Source of the DNA: Bacteroidaceae bacterium
Lineage (GTDB): Bacteria > Bacteroidota > Bacteroidia > Bacteroidales > Bacteroidaceae
Length of the DNA stretch: 44,059 nucleotides
Direction: 5' to 3'
NCBI GenBank assembly: GCA_017617575.1
Contig: JAFZVY010000004.1
Coordinates: 1 to 44,059 of the forward strand
In this document: piece by piece, positions 3,739 through 42,220 of the stretch
Layout of the letters: each line of letters starts with the position of its first letter
How positions within the stretch are numbered: the first letter of the stretch is position 1
The notes under the pieces: generated by a model
Told to the model about the DNA's origin: nothing
Databases searched by the model: none
What the model saw: the letters and a program-made list of their open reading frames with translations, nothing else
Position numbers and translations under genes: made by a program

Positions 3739-3925
3739 ACCCATCCCTACCATTTTGCTTCCACTATGCCTCCGTTGTGAATCCGTTCTGACTACGGAGT
3801 AAGTCCCATTAATCTCCCATTAACCTCCCATTAAAGTCCCATTAACCTCCCATTTTGAATGGGACATCTATGGGTACTGAATGGGTAGATAAAGGATATA
3901 AATTCGTACTCACTTGGGAGGCATA
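3739..3925. repeat. 11-bp phased array with an inverted second half
   Basis: The word CCCATTAAyCT starts at 3805, 3816, 3827, 3838 and 3849, exactly 11 bp apart. The inverted core TGGG then follows at 3860, 3871, 3882 and, two units later in the same phase, 3915. Degenerate units beginning CC keep the same phase to the left (3750, 3761, 3772, 3783). The two orientations meet in a perfect 7-bp stem with a 3-nt loop (3848-3854 against 3858-3864). No coding potential. Function unknown. Confidence 0.85.
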
Positions 3926-4044
3926 GCGAATACATTGCCTAAGATAGGTGTATGAATATTTGGGGGTCGGCTTCACTTGTTCGTTTTAGTGGAACAAATT
4001 GCTTGCCCTCGCGTTTTTCTGTATAATATATGGTATAAAAAAAC

Positions 4045-4078
4045 GAGAATGAGTCAAAGTATGTCTTGACTCATTCTC
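4045..4078 (-). terminator. Intrinsic terminator of the sigma/anti-sigma unit
   Basis: Perfect 13-bp stem (4045-4057 with 4066-4078) and an 8-nt loop. On the minus strand the stem is followed by a run of seven T. It lies about 105 bp after the stop of the gene at 4183-4671 and well upstream of the susC promoter, so it separates the two units. Confidence 0.85.
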
Positions 4079-4182
4079 ATTCTGCGATGGAAAATGTTCC
4101 ATCAGTGTTTGATGAATAACTTCACAGTTATCATCAGTGGTTTAAGTTAAGCATCGATTTGTTTAATATTATAAAGCAAAAG

Positions 4183-4671: not shown

Positions 4672-4731
4672 ATTGTGAGTTTTAATTATTATGGGCTTTT
4701 ATTTGCCCCTCTATAATAACGACGGATGAAA

Positions 4732-4778
4732 AACAAAAAAGTTACAAAAAAATCTAACTTTTTTGTAACTTTTTTGTT
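4732..4778. terminator. 20-bp perfect hairpin between sigma and anti-sigma genes
   Basis: Positions 4732-4751 are the exact reverse complement of 4759-4778, with a 7-nt loop. Both arms are runs of A or T around GTTAC. Because each arm ends in six A or T, it can act as an intrinsic terminator in either direction. It lies 27 bp after the sigma stop, so it probably ends or attenuates the argB-sigma transcript ahead of the next gene. Confidence 0.75.
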
Positions 4779-4805
4779 TATACTTTGTAAATGTATGTAT
4801 TTCCG

Positions 4806-10752: not shown

Positions 10753-10755
10753 CTA

Positions 10756-14520: not shown

Positions 14521-14560
14521 TTTACTCCTTTTCACTTCCTTTTACTCCTTCTAACTCCAA
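14521..14560 (+). repeat. 10-bp phased ACTCC array just before a GTG start
   Basis: Four units align exactly every 10 bp: TTTACTCCTT, TTCACTTCCT, TTTACTCCTT and CTAACTCCAA. The ACT cores start at 14524, 14534, 14544 and 14554. The array follows CATTCGTC, and its last unit ends 11 bp before the GTG start at 14572. It lies inside the likely leader RNA. Confidence 0.8.
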
Positions 14561-15557: not shown

Positions 15558-16013
15558 ATGGAGTCACTCAACGAATTTTTCATCAACTACGGATACATAG
15601 GAATGTGTCTTGCAGCCTTCCTTGCTGGCACATTCGTTCCTTTCAACTCAGAGGTCGTAATGGCAGCCCTAGTTGCCACCACATCCATGGACCCATGGCT
15701 CACCATAATAAGCGGAACGATAGGCAATGTGGCAGGTACTATATTCAACTATTACATAGGACGAATATGGGACGTGCAACCCATCTCCAAGTGGATGAGG
15801 ATAAAGGAGAAACGCCTCGTAAAAACCAAGAATTACGTGGAGAACAAAGGCTCGTGGATAGCCATGTTCACCTTCCTCCCAATCTTCGGTTCAGCCATAG
15901 CCATAGCCCTCGGCATCCTCAGAGCTAATGTGTGGGGCGTGACCCTATTCTCCTTCATCGGCAAATTTGCCCGTTACATACTCGTGGTTTTGTCTGTCAA
16001 GGCTATAGTGTAA
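15558..16013 (+). CDS. DedA/VTT-domain membrane protein (YqaA-like)
   Basis: A 151-residue membrane protein of the DedA superfamily, proposed to move lipids such as undecaprenyl phosphate or phosphatidylethanolamine across the inner membrane. The VTT-domain features are an N-terminal re-entrant stretch with GTFVPFNSEVVMAALV, the glycine-rich GTIGNVAGTIFNYYIG, and the later FLPIFGSAIAIALGILR and GKFARYILV. The shorter length fits the YqaA branch. It follows the unknown membrane gene by 2 bp and is ended by a strong terminator at 16121-16164. In Bacteroidetes the exact substrate is unknown. Confidence 0.88.
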   Translation: MESLNEFFINYGYIGMCLAAFLAGTFVPFNSEVVMAALVATTSMDPWLTIISGTIGNVAGTIFNYYIGRIWDVQPISKWMRIKEKRLVKTKNYVENKGSWIAMFTFLPIFGSAIAIALGILRANVWGVTLFSFIGKFARYILVVLSVKAIV

Positions 16014-16120
16014 ACAGATGTTCGTTTTTCTTCACAAGAATTACAAAAGTATATCTAAGATTCAAGTAACAAATCCACCATTACTTTGAGCTTACTCTGG
16101 GATTTGTTTACCTTCCAACA

Positions 16121-16164
16121 ACAAAAGAGGATATGTCTACAATGTGACATATCCTCTTTTGTTC
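16121..16164 (+). terminator. 18-bp perfect stem-loop terminator after the dedA homologue
   Basis: Positions 16121-16138 pair perfectly with 16147-16164 around an 8-nt loop. The downstream arm ends CTCTTTTGTT and is followed by CTTCGTT, a T-rich tail. It closes the 14572-16013 operon and may work in both directions. Confidence 0.85.
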
Positions 16165-16231
16165 TTCGTTATGTTAATACTGTTTTTAGACAACGATCAT
16201 ATATTCATTTTTTACGTCTCTAAATGCTCTT

Positions 16232-16259
16232 AAAAATCGCCCATCTCTGGGCGATTTTT
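16232..16259. terminator. Second bidirectional terminator
   Basis: A 12-bp stem (16232-16243 with 16248-16259) closes a TCTC loop. The core is TCGCCCA/TGGGCGA and the right side runs into seven T. The left arm begins with A, so it can also stop minus-strand transcription. Confidence 0.8.
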
Positions 16260-16261
16260 TT

Positions 16262-16352
16262 GTGCGCGTAGAAAAAAAATTTTGTACGCGTACAAAAACA
16301 ATTCTTTTCGGGATGCAGATAATTTTTCTTCGGGAAGAAATTTTGAAATTCT
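16262..16352. repeat. Roughly 22-bp periodic repeat with palindromic core
   Basis: Units begin at 16262 (GTGCGCGTAG), 16284 (GTACGCGTAC, a perfect palindrome), 16309 (CGGGATGCAG) and 16331 (CGGGAAGAAA). Each carries an A/T-rich tail. Spacings are 22, 25 and 22 bp, about two helical turns. Divergence is high, so this is a weaker call than the 11-bp arrays. Confidence 0.45.
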
Positions 16353-16459
16353 CCCAAAACTGCATTTTTTAGGGTGCAGAAAATACGATAAGTCACCAAC
16401 TGAGACATTATACAAATAGAACAAAGACGTAGTGGTGTGTGTCTTTTTCTTATTGTGTT

Positions 16460-16549
16460 TCCCTTAGCTTCCCCTTAGGTGTGCCTTAGGTGTCTCTTAG
16501 TTTTGTAAGGGAATTGTAAGGGGAATGTAAGGTGAACCTAAGGCACACG
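16460..16549. repeat. 11-bp phased mirrored array, CTTAG x4 then TAAGG x4
   Basis: CTTAG begins at 16463, 16474, 16485 and 16496. TAAGG begins at 16506, 16517, 16528 and 16539. Every gap within each half is exactly 11 bp. The second half is roughly the reverse complement of the first, so the whole can fold as one long imperfect hairpin in several registers. It has the same layout as the array at 3739-3925 but a different word. Confidence 0.88.
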
Positions 16550-16595
16550 TAACAGGAAGTTCGTCTTTTTCCTTGTGTTCTATCCCTTGCTTTTT

Positions 16596-16633
16596 CCTTA
16601 CTATCCTGTACGGATTTGTACAGGATGGTAAGG
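16596..16633. other. 16-bp hairpin with a 6-nt loop
   Basis: Arm 16596-16611 pairs with 16618-16633 with a single G-T type mismatch; the loop is GGATTT. The flanks TTTTT and GGGAAAAA extend the symmetry. There is no clean T-run on the plus strand. It may be a terminator for minus-strand transcripts, a protein site or the core of another array. Confidence 0.6.
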
Positions 16634-16740
16634 GAAAAATTGGGGGAAAAGTAATGTGATGTGTAGCGTGGGGTACTATTACATATATGTGTCATTATGA
16701 TATTTGCTTACGAACACTTACTTACATTGTGCTATTTGCC

Positions 16741-16806
16741 CAATCACAGAAAAATCACGAAGGACTCACGAAACATTAGCGAAGGATTGTCGGAGGGTCA
16801 TGAAGT
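16741..16806. repeat. 11-bp phased TCACGAAG array
   Basis: Units TCACAGAA, TCACGAAG, TCACGAAA, TAGCGAAG and TGTCGGAG begin at 16744, 16755, 16766, 16777 and 16788, exactly 11 bp apart. A sixth, TCATGAAG, begins at 16798, one base early. I see no inverted half. It lies about 110 bp upstream of the TPR gene promoter. Confidence 0.75.
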
Positions 16807-16911
16807 GACAAAATGTTAGGATGTGTTGTCTTTTGTAAAGTGTAAAAACACGCTACAAATAGGAAAAAAATAGTATTTTCAACGAAAAATGTTAATTGTG
16901 GCGAAAATATT

Positions 16912-16942
16912 ATTGCTTTTGGATAATCATTTCGTATCTTTG
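16912..16942 (+). promoter_or_regulatory. Promoter of the TPR gene
   Basis: TATCTTTG at 16935-16942 matches TAnnTTTG. ATTG at 16912-16915 lies 19 bp upstream as the -33 element. Transcription would start near 16949, giving a leader of about 50 nt before ATG 17002. Confidence 0.7.
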
Positions 16943-17001
16943 TCCTTGCAAAACTGTATTATCAAAACAATCAGACAATCAGGTGTACTGATTTTATTTA
17001 T

Positions 17002-19761
17002 ATGAATAATAAGGGAATCATTCTGGCAGCATTACTGTTAGGTGCTTCTGGCGTTGTTTCTGCCCAGCAGGTTTATACTGGCTCTTCGGTGGAGACAATA
17101 CAGGAATCCGCTATTAAGTTGGTGGCTGACGGTCACTATTATGCTGCAAAACTTTCACTTGAAAGATATCTATGTGAGGCGGGACACGACAGGAAGTTGG
17201 CAAAGGATGCCGAGGCTCTCCGTCTTGTCTGCGACTATGCGCTTCGTACCCCAGGTACGGCTGATGCCATAAGCGCATGGCTTGACCGCAACTCATCAAA
17301 CGTGTATCACGACGTGTTACGTACACTTCGTGGCAACCTCCTCGTGATGGAAGGTCGCTACGAGGAAGTGAACGACCTCGAATATACTCCTTTCCTCTAT
17401 CCTGTATCACTCTTGCAGGAGGAGTCAAAGCTCTATTGCGCCATCCTTGCCATCCATCGTAGTGACTATGGCAAGGCTCAGAGGCTTCTCAATGACTTGA
17501 TGACCAATGACAAGTATTACGTGGATTGTGACTACTACCTTGCCTACATCAAGTATGTGAAGGGTGACTTCAAGGGTGCCTACTCTGGCTTCTCTGCCAC
17601 TTCCACGTCGCCTAAGTACAAGAACACGGCTTCGCTCTATGCCGCCGACTGTTGCGTAAGGACTGGCAACAACAAGCAGGCTCTCGAATACGTGGGAAAG
17701 GTTCCTAACAATGGCGAGAATGCCGACCTCATCTACCGCATCAAGGGTGAGGCTAACTATGGTCTTGAGAACTATAGCGAGGCTGTGAAGATGTTTGAAA
17801 AGTCGCATGCCACAGACCGTACCTCACTTTACAAGCAAGGTATGTCATACCTCCGCCTCAAGCAGTATGACAAGGCTGCCAACTGCCTTACCAAGAGTGC
17901 TGGCACGAGCAAGGACGTGATGGCTCAGAGTGCATGGCTCAACGCTGGTAATGCCTACCTCAAGGTACAGAAGAAGCGTCAGGCTCAGATGGCTTTCCAA
18001 CAGGCTGCAAGCAACACCTCGGACAAGACAATGAGCGAGGAGGCAGCTTACAACTATGCCCTCACGCTTCATGATGGTGCACCACTCGGCTTCGGAGAGT
18101 CGGTTACTGCCTTCGAGGGATTCCTCAATAAGTATCCTAACTCTAAGTACAACAGCGTAATCACAAAGCACCTCACTGAGGTATATTTCACTACAAAGAA
18201 CTATTCCGCTGCACTTGCTTCGATTGAAAAGATTAAGAAGCCAAGCAAGGAGATTCTCAATGCCAAGCAGAGGGTGCTCTACAACCTCGGTATTCAGTCG
18301 TTCACATCCACTGACTACAAGGCTGCCAAGGGCTATATGGCCAAGTCAATCGTGATGGGCAATGTGGACGAGGAGTCATTCTGTGAGTCATACCTTATCA
18401 AGGGTGAGAGTGAGTACCGTCTCGGCGACTACAAGTCAGCACTCGTTGACCTCAAGCAGTTCACTAACATTGCTCCAAGCTCGGCTAAGAACTACGCATA
18501 CGCAAGCTACAGCATAGGTTATTCATACTTCAAGCTTCAGGACTATTCAAATGCCCTGAATCATTTCCAGAAGTATGTGAACAACCCTCTCTATAATGGT
18601 AAGGAGGTGGACAAGCAGATTCTCTCTGATGCCCACAACCGTATCGGTGACTGCTACATGAGCCGCCGCAAGTACAACGAGGCAAACGCAAGCTACCAGA
18701 AGGCTCTCGACGTAAGTGAGGTGAATGGTGACTACTCACTCTTCCAGCAGGCTTACATCGCTGGTCTCAAGGGTAACTACAGTCGCAAGGTTGAGCTTCT
18801 CAACAATATGAGCGACACCTATGCTGGTTCGGTATATACAGCCGATGCCCTCTATGAGAAGGGACGCGCATACGTTCAGATAGGCGATAAGAAGGGTGCT
18901 TCACAGGCATTCAGCAAGATTGTGAACGACTACCCACAGAGTGCCAATGCACGTAAGGCTTGCAACGAGCTTGCCATGATTCAATATGAGTCAGGCGAGG
19001 TGAACTCAGCTGTCAAGTCTTATCTCCGTGTCATCGAGGAATACCCTAACACATCAGAGGCACAGACGGCTCTTGCCAACCTCAAGGATGTGTATGTAAG
19101 CCAGGGCAAGGTGAACGAGTACAAGGCTCTCTCAGCCAAGGCAGGCAAGCCTCTCTCACAGGAGGAGCTTGAGACTCTCCTTCGTGATGCTGCCATCAAG
19201 GCTGTCATGAACAATGACAACGTGGCTGCACAGAAGTATTACGGACAGCTCAAGGCACAGACCACATCGGAGACCATGCGTCTTGAGGCACAGATTGGCG
19301 AGGTACGTGCCGCATACGCAGCAAGGGACTATGCCGCAACCATCAACCTTGCTTCCGCCATCCTCGTTGATGGTAGCAAGGTGGCACCTGAGGTTCAGGC
19401 AGAGATTCGCATGGCTCGTGCAGACAGCTACCTCATGCAGAAGCAGAACAAGAAGGCTGTGGATGACCTCAACATCCTTGCCAAGGACACTCACATCATC
19501 TATGGTGCACAGGCTACGGTTCGTCTTGCTCAGTATGCCTACGACACTAAGCAGTATGAGTCGGCTGAGAACTGCCTCACCAACTTCATAGACTCTGGTA
19601 CTCCTCACACATATTGGTTGGCTCGTGCCTTCATCCTCCTTTCAGACGTATGCGCTCGTCAGGGTAGGGATGTTGAGGCTCAGCAGTACCTTGTATCTCT
19701 CAAGAGCAACTACACAGAGAATGATGAAATCAATAAGATGATTGAGGATAGACTTAAATAA
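17002..19761 (+). CDS. Exported tetratricopeptide-repeat protein
   Basis: A 919-residue protein with a signal peptide (MNNKGIILAALLLGASGVVSAQQ) followed almost entirely by TPR helices. Examples of the repeat are KALEYVGKVPNNGENADLIY-like blocks, YKQGMSYLRLKQYDKAANCL and YSIGYSYFKLQDYSNALNHF. I count at least a dozen TPR-like units; helices rich in Lys and Asp alternate with YxxA signatures. It is probably periplasmic, serving as a scaffold. The outer-membrane barrel gene follows 40 bp later, so the pair may form one complex, perhaps the TPR part binding the barrel. No enzymatic motif is seen. The Ala- and Lys-rich composition reflects the repeats rather than foreign origin. Confidence 0.85.
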   Translation: MNNKGIILAALLLGASGVVSAQQVYTGSSVETIQESAIKLVADGHYYAAKLSLERYLCEAGHDRKLAKDAEALRLVCDYALRTPGTADAISAWLDRNSSNVYHDVLRTLRGNLLVMEGRYEEVNDLEYTPFLYPVSLLQEESKLYCAILAIHRSDYGKAQRLLNDLMTNDKYYVDCDYYLAYIKYVKGDFKGAYSGFSATSTSPKYKNTASLYAADCCVRTGNNKQALEYVGKVPNNGENADLIYRIKGEANYGLENYSEAVKMFEKSHATDRTSLYKQGMSYLRLKQYDKAANCLTKSAGTSKDVMAQSAWLNAGNAYLKVQKKRQAQMAFQQAASNTSDKTMSEEAAYNYALTLHDGAPLGFGESVTAFEGFLNKYPNSKYNSVITKHLTEVYFTTKNYSAALASIEKIKKPSKEILNAKQRVLYNLGIQSFTSTDYKAAKGYMAKSIVMGNVDEESFCESYLIKGESEYRLGDYKSALVDLKQFTNIAPSSAKNYAYASYSIGYSYFKLQDYSNALNHFQKYVNNPLYNGKEVDKQILSDAHNRIGDCYMSRRKYNEANASYQKALDVSEVNGDYSLFQQAYIAGLKGNYSRKVELLNNMSDTYAGSVYTADALYEKGRAYVQIGDKKGASQAFSKIVNDYPQSANARKACNELAMIQYESGEVNSAVKSYLRVIEEYPNTSEAQTALANLKDVYVSQGKVNEYKALSAKAGKPLSQEELETLLRDAAIKAVMNNDNVAAQKYYGQLKAQTTSETMRLEAQIGEVRAAYAARDYAATINLASAILVDGSKVAPEVQAEIRMARADSYLMQKQNKKAVDDLNILAKDTHIIYGAQATVRLAQYAYDTKQYESAENCLTNFIDSGTPHTYWLARAFILLSDVCARQGRDVEAQQYLVSLKSNYTENDEINKMIEDRLK

Positions 19762-22591: not shown

Positions 22592-22610
22592 TTGCTTTTT
22601 GAAAGGAAGA

Positions 22611-23156
22611 ATGCAGTACCAAGACAAAGATTTCGGAACTATACATATAACCGTCAACCCGAGGGCGCGTAGAATCATAATGCGACCTGTGGTTGGCGGT
22701 TTGCGTGTAACTGTTCCTCCTTACAGAAGCCTTACGCTGGGAGAGGTGAAGGAGGTCATAGACAACCATCGTAGTGCCCTACTGCGCAACTGGCATAAGG
22801 TGAACGAACGCCCCGTAACGTCAGACGAGGAGCTAAAGTACCTGCGTAAGGCAGCAAAGCAGTATCTCCCTATAAGACTGGCAGAGTTGGCTCAACAGTT
22901 CAACTTCCACTACACAGGGCTGAAGATACAGTCCTCACGTACGCGTTGGGGCTCATGCTCTGGTACTAACAGCATCAACCTTTCATTATTCCTCATGAGA
23001 GTGCCAGAACACCTCATAGACTATGTCATCCTTCATGAACTATGCCACACCGTTCACCACGACCATTCCGACAGGTTCTGGGCATTGATGGACGAGGTAA
23101 CAGGTGGAAAGGCAAAGGAGTTGCGAAAACAACTTGCAAATTATACTACGGCTTAA
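22611..23156 (+). CDS. YgjP-like (M48/DUF45) metallopeptidase domain protein
   Basis: A 181-residue protein with the WLM/SprT-like zinc site: HELCHTVHHDHSDRFW, an HExxH motif with a third histidine, in the C-terminal third. The preceding RTRWGSCSGTNSINLSLFLM is the conserved DUF45/YgjP signature. The N-terminal part is a small beta domain (PRARRIIMRPVVGGLRVTVP). I chose ATG 22611, preceded by GAAAGGAAG, over a TTG at 22599. Homologues sit near restriction or repair genes in other genomes, but the role is unsettled. It starts 19 bp after the HIT stop, and a thioesterase gene follows. Confidence 0.85.
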   Translation: MQYQDKDFGTIHITVNPRARRIIMRPVVGGLRVTVPPYRSLTLGEVKEVIDNHRSALLRNWHKVNERPVTSDEELKYLRKAAKQYLPIRLAELAQQFNFHYTGLKIQSSRTRWGSCSGTNSINLSLFLMRVPEHLIDYVILHELCHTVHHDHSDRFWALMDEVTGGKAKELRKQLANYTTA

Positions 23157-23205
23157 AAAAAGGCCTACCATAAAAACTCATAATCGTAAAAACGTACAAC
23201 ATACT

Positions 23206-23623: not shown

Positions 23624-23703
23624 CGGGGAAACGGATATTCGGTTTTACGGTTGGGCGGTTTTATGGCTGGACGGTTATTTGTTCATGCGATTATTCGCCA
23701 TAA
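23624..23703. repeat. 8-bp phased CGGTTTTA array, ten units
   Basis: Beginning two bases after the thioesterase stop, octamers start with CGG or TGG at 23624, 23632, 23640, 23648, 23656, 23664 and 23672, then TGTTCATG, CGATTATT and CGCCATAA continue the phase to 23703. CGGTTTTA occurs twice exactly and CGGTTATT once. A related array lies at 39120-39185. Confidence 0.88.
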
Positions 23704-25939: not shown

Positions 25940-26536
25940 ATGAAAAAGATTATACCTTTCATTGTAGCACAGATAACTATGCTCCTTGCCCTCTCATCAT
26001 GCAACGGATGCTCAGGCAACGGCTCACCAGCCGATTCACTCAACATCATCACTCTCGATTCCCTTCCTCGCATTGTGGAGCTTGAAGGCATCATCGGTGA
26101 TGGCACGAGCATGAACGAGCTTGAGATTATCTCTGCCAATGGCGACACAACTATCGTGAGCGTACCAAATGAGATGGTCAAGGGCGATGTGAAGGCAGGC
26201 GACCTTGTCAATGTCATTTACTTCGTCAACCGTGACGAGAACCTTGCATCAACTGCAATCAACATCACTGCCCTCTGCCACCTGTGGACAACCACCAAGA
26301 ACGGCACAAAGCAGAGTATTGAGCTTGATGGCAAAGGCGTGGCTATATCTTACAACACAGCCATTGAATATGACCATTGGCAACTAAAGGATGGCTTCCT
26401 CGTACTCCAAGCTTCCAAGCCACTCGGTTCAGAGAAGCCACAGCAAGCTGATACATTCGAGATTATGAGTCTCACCAGCACCCAGCTCGTTCTTATGAAG
26501 AATCACGTGGAAACAGTGTTTGAACTCGAAAACTAA
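25940..26536 (+). CDS. Lipoprotein of unknown function
   Basis: A 198-residue protein with a type II signal peptide: MKKIIPFIVAQITMLLALSS, then the lipobox cysteine at 21 (ALSSC-NG). Two small beta-rich halves follow, about 35-105 (LEGIIGDGTSMNELEIISAN) and 115-195 (LWTTTKNGTKQSIELDGKG). The second half resembles the lipocalin-like domains seen in Bacteroidales lipoproteins, though I see no sequence signature that proves it. Likely anchored in the outer or inner membrane. It has its own promoter and a strong terminator, and its stop runs into a 7-bp mirrored array. Confidence 0.75.
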   Translation: MKKIIPFIVAQITMLLALSSCNGCSGNGSPADSLNIITLDSLPRIVELEGIIGDGTSMNELEIISANGDTTIVSVPNEMVKGDVKAGDLVNVIYFVNRDENLASTAINITALCHLWTTTKNGTKQSIELDGKGVAISYNTAIEYDHWQLKDGFLVLQASKPLGSEKPQQADTFEIMSLTSTQLVLMKNHVETVFELEN

Positions 26537-26537: not shown

Positions 26538-26638
26538 AATTAATTTTGAATTAGTAATGAGTAATTAGTAATAGCTATCCAGACTATGACGGACTCATAC
26601 GATATTACTCATTTCTAATTGGTAATTACTCACTATAA
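26538..26638. repeat. 7-bp phased mirrored array
   Basis: From two bases after the lipoprotein stop: AATTAAT, TTTGAAT, TAGTAAT, GAGTAAT and TAGTAAT occupy 26538-26572 with no gap. After a spacer of about 30 bp, ATTACTC, ATTTCTA, ATTGGTA, ATTACTC and ACTATAA run from 26604 to 26638 in the opposite orientation with the same 7-bp period. The halves can pair as a long imperfect stem in more than one register. Confidence 0.88.
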
Positions 26639-26676
26639 AAAGCCATTTGGGACAATCGTTCCGAATGGCTTTTTTG
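26637..26676 (+). terminator. Terminator of the lipoprotein gene
   Basis: AAAAAGCCATT-TGGGA pairs with TTCCG-AATGGCTTTTT (26637-26653 with 26658-26674, minor mismatches) and ends in six T. It begins at the end of the 7-bp array. Confidence 0.85.
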
Positions 26677-26715
26677 AATAATCATTAGTCAATGAATAGC
26701 GTTTGGTAACAAGCA

Positions 26716-26800
26716 AAAAATAACTTGGTATATTTATTTAGCATAAATTAATGGCAGTTCGTGCAAAAACAAAAGTCTTTTTTTGTACCAAGTTATTTTT
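26716..26800. repeat. 85-bp element bounded by 15-bp perfect inverted repeats
   Basis: Arm 26716-26730 (AAAAATAACTTGGTA) is the exact complement of 26786-26800. The 55-nt centre is AT-rich and encodes nothing visible. It might be a miniature mobile element, a small RNA or a protein-binding palindrome; no target-site duplication is evident. Confidence 0.6.
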
Positions 26801-26919
26801 AAGTCATTACTTAAACAATATTTGAGCTATGTTTAAGCTTTATGCTTGTACAAAATATCCGAGAACAATATTTCTTCATACAAATAGCAAAGATTACAAA
26901 ATGGTTTATACACGAAAAA

Positions 26920-26976: not shown

Positions 26977-29115
26977 TTACTCAATAGTCATTTCGTTAAT
27001 AAGATTCTTTCCCTTAAAGTAATCCTCGATTACTGAGAGAATCCAACGAACATCTACGCCAATGCAACGCTGAAGGTTACGGTCAAACTTGATGTCGCCT
27101 GACATTGCTTCCCAGTTGCCATCGAATGCAAGACCTACAAGACGACCCTTACCATCGTACATACCTGAGCCTGAGTTACCACCAGTGATGTCATTTGTAG
27201 TGAGGTAACAGAGTGGAAGCTTGCCCGTGATAGGGTCAATGTACTTGGCAGAGAACTTACCTTTCTTCATCCACTTATAAACAGGGTCGATAAGCTCGTA
27301 GTCATAGTTCTCAGGCTCGTTGTCATGCTTGTTGAGGAATGACTGAGGAGTAGTGACAAGATTGCGTGCCTCCTCCTTGAGACCTGTTGTACCTGCGGCG
27401 AAGTTGATAGGCTCAAATACGCCGTAGCTCATACGAAGGGTGAAGTTTGCATCTGGATAGTAATCCTTTGAATGGTTCATCTCACGGAGAGCATCGCCAA
27501 GAAGACGCTCGTACTCATAAGAGCTACCATCAATATGGAGGTCGCCAAGAAGCTGCACAATTGACATGGTAAAGTCAACCATTGGGTCCTTTGCCACCTC
27601 AGAGAACTGTGAATAGCCTGTCAATGACTCTGGACGTGAGAACACAGACTTTTCATAGAGAGCATCAACGTAGGCATTAACATTGCCGTTATATGCAGAG
27701 TCAATCATGTGTACAATATCCTTTGGCTTGAAACGCTCCTCTGGCACCTTGTCAAGATAGTTCTTGAGGAGAGCTGCAAACACCTTCTTGTCAGTATCTA
27801 CATCAAGGTCCTTGTAAACCTGTGCGGCACGCTCGCCAAATGGTTTGTCACCAGCATACGTACCGAACATATTACGATAAAGGATGAAGTTGAGGATGTC
27901 AGAACCACTGATGAATGACTCCATGAAGAGATTGCGAGTGTACATCACGTTATAGTTACGCTCATAGATAACCTTGAGTGAATCGAGGATACCAACGTAC
28001 TGGCGACGTGCAACGGTGTCTTCCATTACCCACTTCTGGATTTGAGCCTCAAGAGCACGCTTCTCGTCAAGCACCTTGAGATTGTCGAGTGCAGTGTTCT
28101 GACCGAGTGAGAACTTCCAATAGTTTGAACTGCTTGCCTGCTTTGAAGCATACATGATGCGAAGGGCATCGCTTGAACGCATAGCAGCATTGATGATGTC
28201 GAGCTTCACGCCACGCACCTGATAACGCACGTCATTAGTGCAGCGCATAGTGTTCCATATACCGTAGCTACTGAGATAACGGTCAGTAGAACCTGGGTAG
28301 CCCATTGTCATTACGTAGTCACCTTCCTTGAATCCCTGAGTTGACACCTTAGCGTAAGTAAGAGGCTTGAAAGGAACGTTATCCTTTGAGTACTGAGCAG
28401 GACGGTTGTCCTTGCCAGCATAGATACGGAATACGGAGAAGTCACATGTCTGACGTGGCCACATCCAGTTGTCTGTATCACCACCGTACTTACCAAGGCA
28501 CTGTGGAGGCGCGCATACGAGGCGAACGTCATCGTAACGCTGATATACACTGAGGAAGTACTTAGAGCCCTTGTAGAATGGCTGTACGGAGCCTAAAAGA
28601 CCTTCATTGTTGCAGTTTACTATCTCCTCGATAGACGTGGCAAGTGAATCAATCTTACGGTCGCGTGCATCACCAGTAACGCCAGCAGGAATCCGACCAA
28701 GAATCTTGTCAGTAACATCTATTGTCTTGATGTGGAAAAGAACATAGAGACCCTCATTTGGCAATTCCTCTTTGTAGCTCTTAGCAATGAAACCATTCTT
28801 GAGGTAGTCATGCTTAACAGATGAATTAGCTTGGATAGAACCGAATCCACAGTGATGGTTGGTAAACACTAAGCCGTTAGGTGAAACGACTGCACCGGAG
28901 CAGAAGCCGCCAAACTGAACAACGACGTTACTAAGTGATGGAGCATCCGCAGAGTATAGTTGCTCGGCAGTAAGTTCAAGTCCGAGACTGTGAAGCACAG
29001 AATCAGTACTCTCTGAGATATTGCCAACAACCCACATTCCTTCGTCTGCCTTAGCTGGGGTCGTAAGGAATAATGAACAAGTTGCTATTATTAAACTTGC
29101 AAAGTTCTTTTTCAT
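26977..29115 (-). CDS. dpp7: S46 dipeptidyl peptidase, Dpp7 type
   Basis: Exported serine dipeptidyl peptidase of family S46. The open frame starts at 29178, but ATG 29115 begins a clean signal peptide (MKKNFASLIIATCSLFLTTPAKA), giving 712 residues, the same length I recall for P. gingivalis Dpp7. Catalytic His is in VFTNHHCGFG (87-88) and catalytic Ser is residue 648 (GGNSGSGM). The S1 position falls in LAFDGNWEAMSGDI: it is Gly666, where Dpp11 enzymes have Arg that selects acidic P1 residues. This points to Dpp7 specificity for hydrophobic P1. It is probably periplasmic and supplies dipeptides as nutrients, complementing the prolyl peptidase at 6274-8448. It has its own terminator. Confidence 0.93.
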   Translation of the reverse strand: MKKNFASLIIATCSLFLTTPAKADEGMWVVGNISESTDSVLHSLGLELTAEQLYSADAPSLSNVVVQFGGFCSGAVVSPNGLVFTNHHCGFGSIQANSSVKHDYLKNGFIAKSYKEELPNEGLYVLFHIKTIDVTDKILGRIPAGVTGDARDRKIDSLATSIEEIVNCNNEGLLGSVQPFYKGSKYFLSVYQRYDDVRLVCAPPQCLGKYGGDTDNWMWPRQTCDFSVFRIYAGKDNRPAQYSKDNVPFKPLTYAKVSTQGFKEGDYVMTMGYPGSTDRYLSSYGIWNTMRCTNDVRYQVRGVKLDIINAAMRSSDALRIMYASKQASSSNYWKFSLGQNTALDNLKVLDEKRALEAQIQKWVMEDTVARRQYVGILDSLKVIYERNYNVMYTRNLFMESFISGSDILNFILYRNMFGTYAGDKPFGERAAQVYKDLDVDTDKKVFAALLKNYLDKVPEERFKPKDIVHMIDSAYNGNVNAYVDALYEKSVFSRPESLTGYSQFSEVAKDPMVDFTMSIVQLLGDLHIDGSSYEYERLLGDALREMNHSKDYYPDANFTLRMSYGVFEPINFAAGTTGLKEEARNLVTTPQSFLNKHDNEPENYDYELIDPVYKWMKKGKFSAKYIDPITGKLPLCYLTTNDITGGNSGSGMYDGKGRLVGLAFDGNWEAMSGDIKFDRNLQRCIGVDVRWILSVIEDYFKGKNLINEMTIE

Positions 29116-29160
29116 ATTGGTTATTAAGTTTTTGAGTTTGTATTTTTTGAGTATAGATGT

Positions 29161-29196
29161 TCTAGTGTCTCTAGTCATTCTAGAGTTTCTAGAATC
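29161..29196. repeat. 9-bp phased TCTAG array
   Basis: Four adjoining nonamers: TCTAGTGTC, TCTAGTCAT, TCTAGAGTT and TCTAGAATC, starting at 29161, 29170, 29179 and 29188. It sits between the flippase stop and the dpp7 start. Next to it (29126-29137) are two octamers of the AAGTTTTTG type. Confidence 0.85.
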
Positions 29197-30767: not shown

Positions 30768-30802
30768 AATTATGAATTGTGAATTATTAAGTATAAATTT
30801 CC
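30768..30802. repeat. 7-bp phased AATTATG array
   Basis: Heptamers AATTATG, AATTGTG, AATTATT, AAGTATA and AATTTCC follow without gaps from 30768 to 30802. No inverted half is evident. It lies in the leader region of the flippase gene. Confidence 0.75.
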
Positions 30803-32792: not shown

Positions 32793-32810
32793 TTAGCCTA
32801 TTTATTCTTT

Positions 32811-32846
32811 TTTGAGTTTCTAAGTTTTTGAGTTCTTAAGTTTTTA
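32811..32846 (-). repeat. 8-bp phased AAACTyAA array in the speA leader
   Basis: Read on the minus strand, AACTT/AACTC cores repeat every 8 bp: their plus-strand G positions are 32816, 32824, 32832 and 32840. The array ends about 20 bp before the speA ATG. Upstream on the minus strand it is preceded by AACAT, as at 36706 and 42150. Confidence 0.75.
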
Positions 32847-32908
32847 TGTTATTGCGGAGATTTCTTCCGTGAAAATTCACAACCACATACCTCCACAAAA
32901 TTAAAAAC

Positions 32909-33436
32909 TTAAAATTCAACTAAGTTCATTATCTGATGAACATAGTTCTGTATTTCTTCTTTTGTATGAATAACCTCAATGTCAAGGCAATGCTTTGCCT
33001 TCTCATAGAACGGAGAGCGATGCTCCAGACTTTCCTCTATGTACTGGATAAGCTCGTCTGGCGACTTGCCCTGTATAAGTGGACGCTGACTCTTACCCAT
33101 AAGGAGATGCTCCTTTAGGACGTATGGTTTGGCTCTTAGATAGACAACCTCTCCATGAGCATTCATAAAGTCAATGTTGTCAAAGAAACAAGGAGTACCT
33201 CCACCGCAAGAGATGACTACGTTCTCAAACTCCCCTACCTCATTAAGCATCTTGCGTTCAATGTCACGGAAGGCAGATTCTCCCTGTTCAGCAAATATGT
33301 CTGGTATCTTCTTGTGAAACCTGTCTTCTATGTACCAGTCGAGGTCAAAGAAGTCTATACCCATCTCATGTGCCAAAGCCTTACCAATAGTGGTCTTGCC
33401 TGCACCCATGTACCCTATGAGAAAAATCCTTTTCAA
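32909..33436 (-). CDS. aroK: Shikimate kinase (TTG start)
   Basis: Phosphorylates shikimate at the 3-hydroxyl in chorismate synthesis. Walker A is GYMGAGKTT (residues 8-16), the shikimate-binding acid lies in FFDLDWYIE, the glycine-rich CGGGTPCF sits near residue 78, and the lid is SQRPLIQ. At 175 residues it is normal. The start codon is TTG at 33436: the codons upstream (AAA TGT TGT TTC CAT) contain no ATG, and MKRIFLIGYMGAGK is the expected N-terminus. The leader just upstream is the 7-bp array between topA and aroK, which may influence this weak start. Probably cotranscribed with topA. Confidence 0.95.
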   Translation of the reverse strand: MKRIFLIGYMGAGKTTIGKALAHEMGIDFFDLDWYIEDRFHKKIPDIFAEQGESAFRDIERKMLNEVGEFENVVISCGGGTPCFFDNIDFMNAHGEVVYLRAKPYVLKEHLLMGKSQRPLIQGKSPDELIQYIEESLEHRSPFYEKAKHCLDIEVIHTKEEIQNYVHQIMNLVEF

Positions 33437-33446: not shown

Positions 33447-33533
33447 AAATGTAAAATCTCAAATCTCCAATTTATGCGTCCCGAACGCTTGTCCCGAAGG
33501 CATAAACCAAAGATTTGAAATTATAGATAATTA
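33447..33533. repeat. 7-bp mirrored array filling the topA-aroK gap
   Basis: AAATGTA, AAATCTC, AAATCTC and CAATTTA run without gaps from 33447 to 33474. After a centre with GCGT-CCCGA-ACGC and a TATGC/GCATA pair, ATTTGAA, ATTATAG and ATAATTA follow at 33513, 33520 and 33527 in inverted sense. It fills the roughly 100 bp between the topA stop and the aroK TTG. Confidence 0.75.
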
Positions 33534-33535
33534 CA

Positions 33536-35989: not shown

Positions 35990-36670
35990 TTATTTCAAGA
36001 CTTCCTCAACCTGAGTTGCGATAGCTCTCATGCCCTTGATGGATGGATGTCCTGACTGTTTCTCTATATCGTGAAGCTGTACGTTTGTAACTCCGTAGTG
36101 TTCACACACCTTTGCCTCTGTCTCTGTCACTTCCTTTGACAATTCACTATTACAGATGTTTATTATGCGAGCCTTAGGATAGTTCTGCTTGATGTAGCTT
36201 ATCATATAGCAGAAAGCAGGACGGAATGAATACAACTGAGTACGTGTCCAGCTGTTGTATTCGTAGTAACCTATAGGCGACTTAGCCCAAGAGTCATTAG
36301 TGCCTGCAAGGATAAGTATGATATCCGGATTGCCAAGGTTACTCATACGAGTGATGAAGGCACGGTCAGAGTAGTCTTCTCTTCCATATCCAGTGTAGCA
36401 TACTGTTGAACCTGAGAAGGAATTATTCTTCTCAAGCTTATATCCCATCTCCTTTATCACAAGGCTCCACCATGTCTGTTCAACGCTCTCAACGTCATTC
36501 TTCTGCTCATTTTTCTTGTCGTTACCGTTGTACCAACAGTAGTTCCAATGGGGACTTACAGCTCCACCAAATGTAGAGTATGAATCACCAAGTATTGACA
36601 CTTTCTTCTGAGCATCAGCAGTCATAATGCCAGCCATAATGATTGCGGCTGCGATAATAAATCTTTTCAT
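35990..36670 (-). CDS. Secreted SGNH/GDSL hydrolase
   Basis: A 226-residue exported esterase or lipase-like enzyme. The signal peptide ends GIMTADAQ. SGNH block I is VSILGDSYSTFGG (nucleophile Ser), block II is the SFSGSTVC glycine, block III is ILILAGTNDSW (oxyanion Asn), and block V is GHPSIKGM with the catalytic His. The protein is short and single-domain. Family members deacylate polysaccharides, lipids or peptidoglycan, so the substrate cannot be named. It lies between topA and ruvB without evident functional link. The leader carries an 8-bp AAACTTA array. Confidence 0.9.
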   Translation of the reverse strand: MKRFIIAAAIIMAGIMTADAQKKVSILGDSYSTFGGAVSPHWNYCWYNGNDKKNEQKNDVESVEQTWWSLVIKEMGYKLEKNNSFSGSTVCYTGYGREDYSDRAFITRMSNLGNPDIILILAGTNDSWAKSPIGYYEYNSWTRTQLYSFRPAFCYMISYIKQNYPKARIINICNSELSKEVTETEAKVCEHYGVTNVQLHDIEKQSGHPSIKGMRAIATQVEEVLK

Positions 36671-36677
36671 AGTAATG

Positions 36678-36714
36678 TGAGTTTTTAAGTTTGTTAGTTT
36701 TTTAAGTTTTTATG
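36678..36714 (-). repeat. 8-bp phased AAACTTAA array in the SGNH leader
   Basis: On the minus strand ACT cores recur every 8 or 9 bp (plus-strand G at 36681, 36689, 36697, 36706). They are followed by AACAT, as in the speA and 42062 leaders. The array ends about 8 bp before the ATG. Confidence 0.7.
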
Positions 36715-36762
36715 TTAATGAAGTGCAAAGAGTACATCGTACTAAGATGAGTCTTAGTTTTC

Positions 36763-39080: not shown

Positions 39081-39119
39081 TTTTTCGTTGTATGTTTAGA
39101 TGTTACAATATTATTCTTT

Positions 39120-39185
39120 AGGTTGTACGGTTTTGCGGTTATACGGTAGGTTGTCATCACGTTGTCACGTCATTACGATATTACC
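39120..39185. repeat. 8-bp phased CGGTTnTA array, related to 23624
   Basis: Units start at 39128 (CGGTTTTG), 39136 (CGGTTATA), 39144 (CGGTAGGT), 39152 (TGTCATCA), 39160 (CGTTGTCA), 39168 (CGTCATTA) and 39176 (CGATATTA), exactly 8 bp apart. Both word and internal order resemble the 23624-23703 array, including the TGT unit after the CGG units. Confidence 0.85.
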
Positions 39186-39204: not shown

Positions 39205-39255
39205 GGCAAATCAAGCCCCCTCCCTATAGGGAGGGCTGGGGTGGGTCTTTACTTA
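39205..39255. repeat. GC-rich palindromic element overlapping a stop codon
   Basis: A perfect 18-bp palindrome (CCCTCCCTATAGGGAGGG, 39218-39235) is followed by CTGGGGTGGGTCTTTACTT. The complement of the stop codon of the 39249-42062 gene (TTA at 39249-39251) lies within the conserved tail. A related element ends the gene at 42253. Confidence 0.75.
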
Positions 39256-42062
39256 CTGAACAGCACCTTACCGTTTGGTGCAAGTCCTTCCGCATTAATA
39301 TACATCTCGTGAACGGAACTGTTGTTCCAGAACTCCACATGCGCATTACCGTTGGCATCTGTCTTGATGTCTGGCTCCCAGTAGATGGTACGACGGAAGT
39401 CCTCCATAGGTGGGTAGTAGCTGTAATCCTCCATCTCAAATGTCTTTACGTTGTCGTAGCCGTGGAAGTAAGTTGAGCGTACTCCCTTCTGGTCTCTCTT
39501 CATGCTGAGATGAGTATAGACAAACACAGTCACAGGATCTGTTCCTGCAAGGTCTGAACTCCTGATGAAGTTCTTGTATGCACTTGGTGACTCTGACACA
39601 TATACTGACTTCACCTCGTCAATGAATATCGGCATTGGCTCGATGTTTGTCAAGAGTACTTGAAGGTCTGTGAGCTTTCTTGCTCCGAGATGTGTTATTC
39701 CCACATAAGCGTTGTTGAGAACCCACACGATAGGACGATTCTTATATGCCAGTCCGTCCTCAAACTCACCGTGTCCCTCTATGCGGTCTTGGTTGAGTGT
39801 CTCACCATCAAGTCCTTTCTCAGACGCTGCTATGATATCTTGGTCTGACATTGCAGTACCAGAGTCATTCATGTCTCCACCCATCACCTCCAAAGTTGCA
39901 GTACCAGGACTTGTTGATGCATCTAATGAAGATACCGATGTTGCATCAGTTCCCATTCCCTGTGCTACGTTTGTAGAGAAGAACGCATTACGTGTGTGAA
40001 GCCATTCCCAGAGCGAAGGAACCTGAAGTCCCAAGTCAGCATATCTGTCTGCATCGGCTGCCGCATCATAGAACAACTGTGAGAAATACTGACCTGACTT
40101 TTCGTTCTGCCATGCTGCACGTGCCTGTTCAAATATCTTTCTTCGGGCAGAAACCACGACGTTAGGCAACACCTTGTCTGGGCTTTGTATCTTCAAGTCC
40201 CTGTAGTCGTCAATAGCCTTGTCCATGAACTCGCGCACATTGAACATATTTGACTTTACAGGTGCAAGCATCCTTGTCTCACTTGGCATGAGGTAGCGAC
40301 GTGCAGGAGAGAAGTGGCGGTCAATACCTACGAAGTATTTGGCATCCTTCCAGTATCCCTTACGGTCAACACCAGTGTTGATGATAAGCTGCATGTCGCC
40401 GTAGATGTCAGGCAACTCAAAGGCATAGCCACCCACAGAGTCGGTCTTTGCCTGACCACTTAGGTGCTCGCCTGCCTTATTGTATAAAGTGGCTGTGAGC
40501 CAAGCCTCATCCACCTTGAATTTCTTACTCTTCTCCTTGAGTGTTCCGAAGAGGTAGAGCTTGTCCTCCATAGGCTGGTGGAAGTTGGCACTCTCCTCGT
40601 TGAAGAGCGTGTAACCCTTGTTAGCTCCTATTGCATCTGCCATGAGTGCCCAGTCATAGCGTCTCCAGCCCTGAACCATCATGAGGAGGTCTGCCGCCAT
40701 GCGGTGTTCACGGTCATCTGCCTCGAAGTAATACTCCGGATTGTGAATATAACCCTTTATGTCACTTGAGAGGAGCATCCATGTCTTGTAGTTGCCGTTC
40801 TTACCGTTCACCATGGTCTCTGCATCAATAGCCGAGAACGAAATCCTTGCGTTAGGTACTGTATGAACCTTGATTACCACCTTGCCACAAGGCTTCACTG
40901 CATTAAGAGGCGAAGTGAAGCGTATCGTGTCTGACTGCTGTGACTTAGGACACACAAAGAACTGTCGCTCTGCTTGTATGTGACCGTCAGAAGTGAATAT
41001 CGTCAACTGGTTCACACCATCTGGCATTGTTTTCCTGTCAAATGGTATGGCAAATGCACTATTGCAATATACCGTATCTGCCACGAACACCACTCCATTG
41101 TGCATGAGCGTATAGCCCAGCAACTTACCTTCCATCGAAGGCGAAGCCTGTATCGTGGCCATTATGTTGTCATCCTTCAGCACGTCCAGATTGAGTGACA
41201 CACCCTCTGGCTCAGGCTCTGGGATTAGGAAGTCATGCTGTCCACCTTTAGCATCGGCTATGCGAAGATACTTAGGCTTGCCGTCGTGTACAATCTCGAA
41301 CACACCCTTTCCTTCGTGCTGTGTAGCTACTGCAAACAACGTCTCCTTGTTCTCGTTAAGCACGAGTCCACCAAGCTCTTGGTCGTTACCTGTCTTGTCT
41401 GTTACGAGGAATGCAATCCTTGAACGTATGTCCTTGATAAGATGACCGCCCTCTGGATAGAAGTGTACGCTGAGTCTCTTGTCCTCAGTTATGTTAGCCA
41501 CCGTGTCTTCCTCGTTTGAGCGTATGTTAGGCAAACGCTTCTTGTAGCTCTGTGTCGAAATGACCGGATTTGAGTACTTGCCTTCCTTCGTTGGCTCGTC
41601 AAATATTGGGAACACCCTTGAGAATATGCCTCCGTTGCCCCAGTTGGTCATGTATCTCGTGTAAGCCCTGACTTCGTAGAATCCTGACGTGAATATCTGG
41701 ACAAGGTCTAAGTTACCCTTTGCCACTCCATTCTCGATAGGATACTTCTTAGTCTCTATCACGTCACCCGACGGATTGACAAGCTCCACATAGAGAACTC
41801 GGCTCATATCCGTGGTTTTACTTTTGTCTGCTCTGGTCACGTATGCCGTGAACCATATCGTTTCTCCCTTGAAGTAGCCTGTGTTGTCAAAGTGAAGATA
41901 GACCTTCTCCTGAGGCAATCTCTGGTTGAACAACATCACTCTCTTCATGTATGAGAGAACCTTTGTAAGTTCCTCTTCGCTCTGTACTGCCTGTGCGTTA
42001 GCACCTACCGACAGCATAGATAGTCCGAGTAAGGTTATGGATAGTTTTCTAAAGCAATTCAT
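39249..42062 (-). CDS. Large exported macroglobulin-like (MG2-type) surface protein
   Basis: A 937-residue exported protein with a signal peptide ending GANAQ. Early segments EKVYLHFDNTGYFKGETIWF and VLYVELVNPSGDVIETKKYP, then KGNLDLVQIFTSGFYEVRAY, match MG2 domains of the alpha-2-macroglobulin fold seen in Bacteroidetes surface proteins. A central LLMMVQGWRRYDW motif is typical of this group. About residue 640-840 a stretch resembles a degenerate TonB plug (RPIVWVLNNAYVGITH), and a final beta domain follows (RTIYWEPDIKTDANGNAHVE). No thioester CxEQ motif is seen, so it is not a classical protease trap. It may help assemble or hold outer-membrane complexes; function unknown. The leader is an 8-bp mirrored array. 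Confidence 0.8.
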   Translation of the reverse strand: MNCFRKLSITLLGLSMLSVGANAQAVQSEEELTKVLSYMKRVMLFNQRLPQEKVYLHFDNTGYFKGETIWFTAYVTRADKSKTTDMSRVLYVELVNPSGDVIETKKYPIENGVAKGNLDLVQIFTSGFYEVRAYTRYMTNWGNGGIFSRVFPIFDEPTKEGKYSNPVISTQSYKKRLPNIRSNEEDTVANITEDKRLSVHFYPEGGHLIKDIRSRIAFLVTDKTGNDQELGGLVLNENKETLFAVATQHEGKGVFEIVHDGKPKYLRIADAKGGQHDFLIPEPEPEGVSLNLDVLKDDNIMATIQASPSMEGKLLGYTLMHNGVVFVADTVYCNSAFAIPFDRKTMPDGVNQLTIFTSDGHIQAERQFFVCPKSQQSDTIRFTSPLNAVKPCGKVVIKVHTVPNARISFSAIDAETMVNGKNGNYKTWMLLSSDIKGYIHNPEYYFEADDREHRMAADLLMMVQGWRRYDWALMADAIGANKGYTLFNEESANFHQPMEDKLYLFGTLKEKSKKFKVDEAWLTATLYNKAGEHLSGQAKTDSVGGYAFELPDIYGDMQLIINTGVDRKGYWKDAKYFVGIDRHFSPARRYLMPSETRMLAPVKSNMFNVREFMDKAIDDYRDLKIQSPDKVLPNVVVSARRKIFEQARAAWQNEKSGQYFSQLFYDAAADADRYADLGLQVPSLWEWLHTRNAFFSTNVAQGMGTDATSVSSLDASTSPGTATLEVMGGDMNDSGTAMSDQDIIAASEKGLDGETLNQDRIEGHGEFEDGLAYKNRPIVWVLNNAYVGITHLGARKLTDLQVLLTNIEPMPIFIDEVKSVYVSESPSAYKNFIRSSDLAGTDPVTVFVYTHLSMKRDQKGVRSTYFHGYDNVKTFEMEDYSYYPPMEDFRRTIYWEPDIKTDANGNAHVEFWNNSSVHEMYINAEGLAPNGKVLFSK

Positions 42063-42084
42063 GGCTTTGTTAAGGAATTATTAA

Positions 42085-42220
42085 TTTGAGTTTTGAGTTT
42101 GTAATTTCTTAGTTTTTTAAGTTTTTGAGTTTGTAGGTTCTTAAGTTATTATGTTCTTGAGGATATCTATTTCCGCGAAAACAAAAAAAACTAAAAACTT
42201 ACGAACTCAAAAACTTACAC
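42085..42220. repeat. 8-bp mirrored array in the leader of the MG2 gene
   Basis: Plus-strand AGTTT-type cores lie with G at 42090, 42097, 42112, 42121, 42129, 42137 and 42145. After a centre of about 45 bp, the inverted word AACTT/AACTC follows with C at 42191, 42198, 42206 and 42214. Most gaps are 8 bp, with some 7 and 9. It lies between the U32 stop and the MG2 ATG and joins the GC hairpin at 42218. Confidence 0.75.

Follow-up and report, generated by a model that had tools for sequence, protein, structure and literature searches.

The subject of this report is a set of short arrays between the genes of a 44,059-nucleotide stretch (the window), contig 122 (JAFZVY010000004.1) of the draft genome GCA_017617575.1 of a rumen Bacteroidaceae bacterium (hereafter G000; 3.38 Mb, 162 contigs, 86% complete). 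In these arrays a word recurs at a constant step of 7 to 11 bp, and units aligned in phase consist of a conserved core and free positions. The arrays in the spacers of G000 were confirmed to be real, and they have no established function. The explanation that we tentatively prefer is that they are selfish non-coding repeat DNA, which is copied in replication or repair through priming at the conserved core.

Abundance of the arrays

The statistics were obtained from the window and 60 further stretches of G000 (917,490 bp), in which a simple open reading frame (ORF) caller delimited the genes and 541 spacers of at least 40 bp (137,980 bp). Because some of the stretches were picked for matching window elements, array densities in this set may be somewhat high. 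A lag scan covering steps 4-16, with a score of at least 12 defining long runs, found 264 intergenic runs at steps 7-11, versus 1.8 in shuffled sequences and 5 in an equal-sized sample of coding DNA. Steps 7, 8, 9, 10 and 11 contributed 108, 58, 11, 29 and 58 runs, respectively (shuffle means 0.6, 0.5, 0.3, 0.1 and 0.3; coding DNA 1, 1, 0, 2 and 1). Other steps were rare (1, 2, 0, 3, 2 and 5 runs for steps 4, 5, 6, 12, 13 and 15), and the 46 and 38 runs at steps 14 and 16 are doubles of 7 and 8. When exact four-base words were counted at steps 5-13, with palindromic words counted on both strands, 358 runs of at least four units were found, versus 0.7 in shuffled spacers. At a score of 10 and steps 5-13, an array is present in 237 of the 541 spacers, i.e. 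in nearly half of those examined in G000.

In the window, the step-locked arrays at all 13 sites named in the first-pass annotation exceeded 1000 dinucleotide shuffles of the same 91-bp stretch at the given step (p ≤ 0.001); if any step from 6 to 13 was allowed, the weakest site was 23624 (p 0.011). An independent scan of the window detected 14 arrays, 11 of which were at named sites. It missed the array at 29161 because a called gene start cuts it, and the array at 23624 because few of its core bases are fixed.

Units, words and steps

In six arrays with the core TCTAG (52 units), the core positions gave 0.13-0.75 bits and the next four bases 1.7-1.9 bits. Among 25 listed plus-strand CTAG matches in G000 (out of 83), 23 have cores separated throughout by multiples of 9, and two contain a single distance of 10; the filler bases differ, and the spacing is exactly 9-9 in 46 matches. 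Adjacent-unit similarity was set aside as a measure, because the arrays had been selected on that similarity, and arrays selected by the core alone were compared for AATT at step 7, AGTT at step 8 and CTAG at step 9 (AATT-7, AGTT-8 and CTAG-9). Identical fillers were found in 14 of 198 AGTT-8 pairs within arrays and in 852 of 9672 pairs between arrays; for CTAG-9, the corresponding counts were 1 of 59 and 12 of 802. Since these fillers are no more alike within arrays than between them, the units of the 8- and 9-bp families come from a genome-wide common pool. The 42 CTAG-9 fillers included 13 identities versus 5.4 predicted by independent columns (p 0.006), an excess which points to copied units, beyond independent selection of the core; for AGTT-8 the excess was not significant (866 versus 790, p 0.10). 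Filler identity in AATT-7 was 0.67-0.72 within arrays versus 0.36 between arrays, and the 7-bp arrays look locally re-copied. The pattern of conserved core and free filler tells copying from simple slippage by sequence alone.

Each word keeps mostly to one step: 19 words had five or more runs, and of their 292 exact four-unit runs 250 fall at the modal step, versus 165 (maximum 175) after permutation of the steps. AATT was found at step 7 in 58 of 58 runs, AGTT at step 8 in 25 of 33, and CTAG at step 9; the commonest step-7 words in G000 are AATT, TTAA, ATTC and TAAT.

These data bear on the idea that the arrays are degenerate minisatellites, produced by ordinary replication slippage and random mutation, with inversion by quasi-palindrome template switching at single loci. 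The local homogenization within 7-bp arrays would fit, as would a repeat difference between two relatives (at one site, a sequence single in G017 is present as two imperfect copies in G003) and the finding that, among long simple repeats, heptamers predominate in most of the genomes surveyed by Mrazek (2007), as cited in PMC4679880. However, the 8- and 9-bp families show no tandem-duplication signature, variation avoids the core, each word has one step and homologous copies are dispersed, and we consider slippage quite unlikely.

Mirrored arms and polarity

Mirroring, which the first-pass annotation had reported at several sites, is real: 154 of 343 testable arrays are flanked by an inverted run of the same word at the same step that beats 20 of 20 shuffles, where 16 would be expected. 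The order of the units in the two arms (55 of 69 pairs were testable) scored 4.69 for a hairpin arrangement, 4.95 for a parallel one and 4.72 for a random one; in individual pairs, parallel order was better in 25 and hairpin order in 15. A parallel order, which had been an impression from the 16460 site, fell in this wider test. An RNA stem slipping by one unit, as had been proposed, is possible, with fold z-scores from -1.8 to -8.6 in seven sequences, but hairpin order is no better than random, and therefore pairing has not shaped the arms unit by unit. Hairpin enrichment was itself poorly discriminating, since 10 of 10 shuffles were beaten by 181 of 360 array regions versus 104 of 247 array-free spacers.

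A strand test of eight words showed a bias for AGTT-8 only, and prompted the analyses of polarity. Of the 59 arms of the 8-bp family that lie within 40 bp of a gene, 56 have their outer end pointing toward the nearest gene (27 of 29 for single arms). In exact AGTT-8 runs within 30 bp of a gene, the A-rich strand is the sense strand at 13 of 13 starts, and the G/T strand at 7 of 8 stops. When all families of G000 are read away from the gene, arrays with more G than C outnumber those with less by 60:19 at starts and 75:29 at stops (40:19 and 62:27 without AGTT-8 arrays; 137:92 and 110:127 in array-free spacers). The trinucleotide GCG is present in a 20-bp window at the inner end of 17 of 40 paired and 14 of 48 single 8-bp arms, and at the outer end (either strand) of 5 paired and 3 single arms, with a background of 10%.

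Arrays of the window

The following features were located; the evidence is given in brackets.

3747..3928: 11-bp array (TCCCATTAA plus two free bases), with a C-type arm at about 3747-3854 and an inverted arm to about 3928 (window scan, shuffles)
14521..14558: 10-bp array (TTTTACTCC), member of the 10/11-bp homology cluster (window scan, shuffles)
16248..16396: a different dispersed repeat directly ahead of the 16450 element, with many genome copies (genome search, query 349-497 of 15900-17100)
16450..16558: 11-bp mirrored array (CCTTAG / CTAAGG), with 12 further full or partial genome copies, 79-88% identical
16690..16821: dispersed element with an 11-bp array, CACGAAGGATT, at 16742-16798 (genome search, window scan)
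23169..23199, minus strand: single 8-bp arm (AACT type on the plus strand), 12 bp after gene 22599-23156; one of three polarity exceptions among the 8-bp arms within 40 bp of a gene
23624..23695, plus strand: 8-bp array with the short core CGG and mostly free bases, the weakest of the 13 named sites
26538..26633: mirrored array at step 7 (GAATTAGTAAT type), immediately following the stop of ORF 25940-26536 (scan, shuffles, fold)
26790..26843: 11-bp array TAAnCATTATT, absent from the sites first named (window scan)
29120..29148, plus strand: single 8-bp arm (AGTT type)
29161..29195: 9-bp array (T)CTAGnnnn(n) with four cores, overlapping the start called for ORF 26977-29178; the genome has 16 or 17 CTAG-step-9 places, this one included
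30768..30799: 7-bp array (AATTATG) (window scan, shuffles)
32801..32914: 8-bp element with an AGTT arm at 32809-32850 and an inverted arm to 32914, at a gene junction where 13 of the 20 genomes compared have no bases separating the called genes
33447..33535: 7-bp array whose partner is partly inverted (window scan, shuffles, fold)
36676..36716, plus strand: 8-bp AGTT arm ahead of the start of ORF 35990-36670 (minus strand)
39088..39147, plus strand: 8-bp array with the core CGGTT in its second half (window scan, shuffles)
42085..42219: 8-bp element, complete and mirrored, around the centre TTCCGCGAAAAC; in 6 of the 7 relatives compared the corresponding spacer has 0-1 bp (shuffles, fold, relatives' spacers)

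An ordinary-looking terminator hairpin, AAAGCCATTTGG...CCGAATGGCTTTTTT, lies at about 26635-26680, immediately following the mirrored 7-bp array, which indicates that array and terminator are separate things. Also separate is a dispersed G-rich hairpin with the conserved tail CCCTCC...GGAGGGCTGGGGTGGGTCTTTACTT, found in the window at 39218-39255, 42222-42260 and 22163, and at loci L012, L031, L036, L039 and L043; it gave 11 fuzzy matches in the 917 kb (that in L016 is doubtful), five of them with an array within 200 bp.

Dispersed families

The sites had been taken to share an architecture rather than a dispersed sequence, because their words differ. The shared architecture stands, in that fixed step, mirrored arms and many words go beyond shuffling and composition, with other words in other Bacteroidales, but dispersed families exist as well: 181 of 360 arrays (taken with 40-bp flanks) fall into homology clusters sharing at least 50 bp. 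The largest clusters contain 62 (10/11-bp), 46 (8-bp), 15 (7-bp) and 11 (9-bp) arrays, and there are smaller ones. A genome search with 1.2 kb around 16460 gave 50 matches, and two stretches neighbouring the array at 16450-16558 are other dispersed families. The 8-bp element (42063-42252) gave 53 matches at about 26 places in G000, and 8 weak matches in 5 of 30 relatives. The arrays therefore include several dispersed, species-specific families. One 9-bp family consists of ACACAGAGA around AAAATCTCTGAGTCCTCTG, mirrored about a short A-rich centre (L039:4147-4227, L040:15979, L032:13919, L024:5661).

A family shared by the relatives G007 and G017 has AAAGTGA arms at step 7 flanking the stem TTTGCTACCGCA ... 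TGCGGTAGCAAA. Arm length varies on both sides in the 20 copies read in context, and five of the 20 carry a tandemly doubled half, so that growth of the element can be one-sided; at the G007 loci L281, L283, L285, L286 and L287, it is one half of the element (arm and inner stem) that is tandemly repeated. Copies also lie near the first bases of G007 contigs C6, C7, C24, C27, C37, C42, C63 and C69, and such families therefore probably break short-read assemblies and are under-counted.

The chief alternative, which on balance we doubt, is that the arrays are foldback-like non-autonomous transposons, with arms of tandem binding sites (the core), variable in number, for a transposase acting in trans. 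Foldback elements of eukaryotes have the same plan (PMC3169594), and inverted arms built of a variable number of short tandem units are indeed what is seen here. Transposition would also account for dispersed copies with a conserved centre, better than core-primed copying does, for the species-specific amplification of the 8-bp element, and for elements occupying gene junctions that are closed in relatives. In contrast, no fixed ends were seen: the fixed terminal inverted repeats of miniature inverted-repeat transposable elements (MITEs) are lacking, as the inverted arms end at a different number of units in each copy. No excess of shared words, as expected for target-site duplication, was found at the outer edges in three sets (n = 68, 15 and 20), a weak test because the element edges are fuzzy.

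In the 86% complete draft, the searches for mobilizing genes tend likewise to speak against transposition. The Y1 transposase domain (PF01797, Y1_Tnp) had no match in G000 or in the array-bearing G002, G007, G009, G010 and G012 (drafts, 73-99% complete). Reverse transcriptase (PF00078, RVT_1) had none in the G000 draft or in the array-bearing G004, G005, G006, G007, G010 and G012, and one each in G002 and G008. The transposase families covered were Y1_Tnp, rve and DDE_Tnp_1; rve had no match in the G000 draft, and the single DDE_Tnp_1 match in G000 has an internal stop. By these four domain searches G000 has few transposable-element genes, yet it is rich in dispersed non-coding repeats. REPINs mobilized by RAYT found no support as candidates, there being no Y1 match in the G000 draft. 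Among 690 ORFs (27% of the assembly) no transposase-like repeated ORFs were found, the seven clusters of at least three having three members each. One of these clusters does favour the foldback explanation, with an 11-bp array within 300 bp in three of three cases (base rate 0.46; L018, L027 and one further locus); one member begins MKKNFTLLLFLPTMFALNANAQ and is likely an exported protein.

Placement relative to genes

Most arrays had been taken to abut genes, but only a minority do so: 67 of 333 edges on the stop side and 56 of 329 on the start side are within 10 bp, where random placement gives 27 and 27. Attenuation and 3'-end protection, which had been put forward as roles, are unsupported, as arrays occur in 156 of 340 co-directional, 31 of 72 divergent and 31 of 76 convergent spacers. 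Terminators or attenuators were thus rejected, there being no bias by spacer orientation class and no match to Rfam structured RNAs in the window at the gathering score. Nor does helical-phase binding serve as a general rule, steps 7 and 8 being at least as common as 10 and 11.

The words are rich in stops, but arrays of stop codons in all frames were considered and rejected, because column permutation gives about as many stops at steps 7, 8 and 10 (z 0.3, 1.2 and 0.7); the stop-codon content is somewhat above permutation at step 11 (z 2.1) and step 9 (z 3.3). Promoter spacing was tested with TAnnTTTG, which we take to be the -7 box motif, and was also rejected: outward boxes beside 346 arrays were no commoner than with random placement, either within 15 bp (8 right, 6 left; expected 10.5 and 8.9) or within 60 bp (19 right, 21 left; expected 28.8 and 25.2). 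The divergent-promoter site in G002, G010, G011 and G018 is therefore not typical.

Comparison between species

The nearest named relatives are uncultured Bacteroidaceae and Prevotellaceae genomes, many of them ruminant-derived, and Candidatus Minthosoma caballi (speA 87-92% identical). In a record labelled Roseburia sp. (L170, JAMPEL010000049.1), speA is 88% identical to that of this Bacteroidales genome, and the contig is therefore probably in a mislabelled or mixed bin.

Of 18 same-genus genomes, from each of which 7-40 kb was sampled, 15 had arrays with a score of 12 (the samples of G001, G003 and G011 had none), as did two of nine genomes from other families of the order, one of which (G028) had 4 runs versus 1.0 in shuffles. 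In 66 loci of other Bacteroidales, 25, 13, 10, 2 and 4 runs were found at steps 7-11, with at most 0.4 each in shuffles; array-bearing records among them include Prevotella ruminicola KHT3, Xylanibacter caecicola and Bacteroides caecigallinarum. Four AATT words in a row at step 7 are present in 64 of 148 Bacteroidota genomes, with 221 occurrences in G000 and at most 57 elsewhere. The backward control TTAA at step 7 reached 93 in G000, because TTAA is itself a step-7 word there; AATT at step 6 was found in 15 of the 148 genomes, at most three times per genome and not in G000.

At the junction upstream of speA, there are no bases between the called genes in 13 of 20 genomes, and the genes, read by eye, overlap at ATGA. 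The same junction holds a complete AAAGTGA element in G017 and an 8-bp element in the window's genome, and in both the array, again by eye, supplies the stop of the upstream gene. One divergent spacer has 7-bp arrays with differing words in four relatives. The period, whose conservation at orthologous sites had been regarded as a mark of a genuine element, is often not conserved: the step is the same in 17 of 34 listed pairs with arrays in both species (reciprocals included). The presence of an array in one species, on the other hand, makes an array in the orthologous spacer of another more frequent. With both spacers at least 60 bp, co-occurrence was 11 of 25 versus 22 of 134 below 80% flank identity, 14 of 27 versus 13 of 54 at 80-86%, and 4 of 10 versus 4 of 33 above 86%.

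Such co-occurrence across three classes of flank identity would be expected if the arrays were binding sites, kept by selection at gene borders, of a DNA- or RNA-binding protein. A fixed core, free spacers and a constant step are the signature of repeated sites, and the uniform strand sense of AGTT-8 runs at starts agrees with this explanation. Against it, the same site has different words, and often different steps, from species to species, relatives almost lack the 8-bp family, promoters and gene-orientation classes are not preferred, and polarity is the same at starts and stops. As an account of the arrays, binding sites thus appear unlikely; some arrays, notably the A-rich leaders before starts, may nevertheless have a selected role.

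Proposed copying primed at the core

In the explanation preferred here, the elementary piece would be a polar arm, in which a core of three to six fixed bases recurs at a step of 7-11 bp that is specific to the family, the bases in between being free. The arm would run from the gene boundary into the spacer, and two facing arms would yield a mirrored element. During repair or replication restart in a spacer, an exposed 3' end would anneal through the short core to an existing array, at the same or another locus, copy one or a few units and jump again at the next core. The core, as the landing site of each following jump, would be retained, and the bases between would not; steps would remain constant, since a family's templates all have one step. 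The two ends of a gap, extended on one and the same type of template, would face each other and be joined. We infer the template-jumping step, including the jump between loci, together with its enzyme and its trigger.

Template switching can create and repair inverted repeats (PMC8794818). Of the origins and roles suggested at the outset, it fits best, but copying between loci is needed as well as copying within one. Copying primed at the core is favoured because it explains together the core, the filler, the step, the unit pool, the unordered mirror arms, the polar single arms and the absence of fixed ends. Also in its favour are the intergenic step window of 7-11, the varying arm lengths and doubled halves, the elements at junctions that are closed in relatives, and the lack of a target-duplication signal and of Y1, RVT_1 and rve matches in the draft.

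Several points weigh against this explanation. The word-step lock is looser in other Bacteroidales, where 44 of 65 runs (113 loci) have the same step, and is therefore partly lineage-specific. The polarity of 8-bp arms is lost farther from genes (13 of 23 at 41-200 bp) and is weak in other genomes: away from the gene, G>C versus C>G is 17:9 at stops and 14:15 at starts in the same genus, and 23:6 and 20:16 elsewhere. The central stem-loop is conserved in 20 of 20 copies of the G007/G017 family, although the copies were chosen by that match, and such conservation implies that whole elements were copied, for which transposition is the simpler explanation. The genome comparisons showed no copying event directly, and 7-11 bp indels showed no excess in the closest genome pair (about 90% identical), a comparison that is uninformative. 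Finally, the lower step bound of 7 is left unaccounted for.

A dedicated repeat-writing machinery seems to us improbable, although it would fit the constant step, the free filler, the polar single arms and the unordered mirror arms. Here, a polymerase with a short template would add units of word and filler to 3' ends at intergenic breaks; each species would have its own templates, and the two sides of a healed gap would carry the same strand inward, as telomeric repeats do at chromosome ends. Since no reverse transcriptase domain was found in the G000 draft, the writing enzyme would have to be of another kind, or encoded in the missing part.

Relation to known repeats

If it is true that one general process makes and replaces arrays within a genus, the reading of spacers, of apparent hairpins and of gene starts and ends changes. 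The first-pass annotation knew of no described element of this design. Heptamer arrays, dispersed palindromes and a Prevotella repeat have been published, but searches of an open-access library gave no element that combines a 7-11 bp step lock with free filler and mirrored polar arms, and none of the titles and abstracts listed describes mirrored 7-11 bp arrays in Bacteroidota.

REPINs of the REP-RAYT system (PMC3116915) are likewise dispersed, extragenic inverted doublets of a short word. They have, however, two words per element and are linked to a Y1 transposase. The BrickBuilt MITE of Porphyromonas gingivalis (PMC4596501) is also an intergenic element of Bacteroidales bearing a tandem array, but its direct repeat is 23 nt long, with a leader, a tail and short insertion sequence (IS)-like terminal inverted repeats, and the parts of its description consulted do not present it as mirrored. 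PINSR of Prevotella intermedia (PMC4755523) resembles the present families as a high-copy intergenic repeat of one Prevotella lineage (177 copies in one strain), likewise without terminal inverted repeats; its consensus is 188 bp, and the sections consulted describe no internal short-period array or mirrored arms.

Foldback elements, such as Drosophila FB and nematode Tm1 (PMC3169594), also have long inverted arms that consist of short tandem units, variable in number, around a centre. They are eukaryotic, and Tm1 has 9-bp target duplications and a transposase-coding version, neither of which was found here.

A parallel in step is the TAACTGA heptamer, whose direct repeats are reported from Beggiatoaceae, cyanobacteria and five Bacteroidetes, with no mechanism known (MacGregor, 2015; PMC4679880). 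Like the present arrays, these are short words at a 7-bp step, mostly intergenic and often directly ahead of start codons. As far as described there, they comprise one word, one step and one inverted repeat in 170 sets, whereas the arrays of G000 have steps of 7-11, many words, an inverted partner in nearly half of the testable cases, and families with conserved centres. If one general process does produce the latter, heptamer arrays in other bacteria, as yet unexplained, could be studied within the same testable framework.

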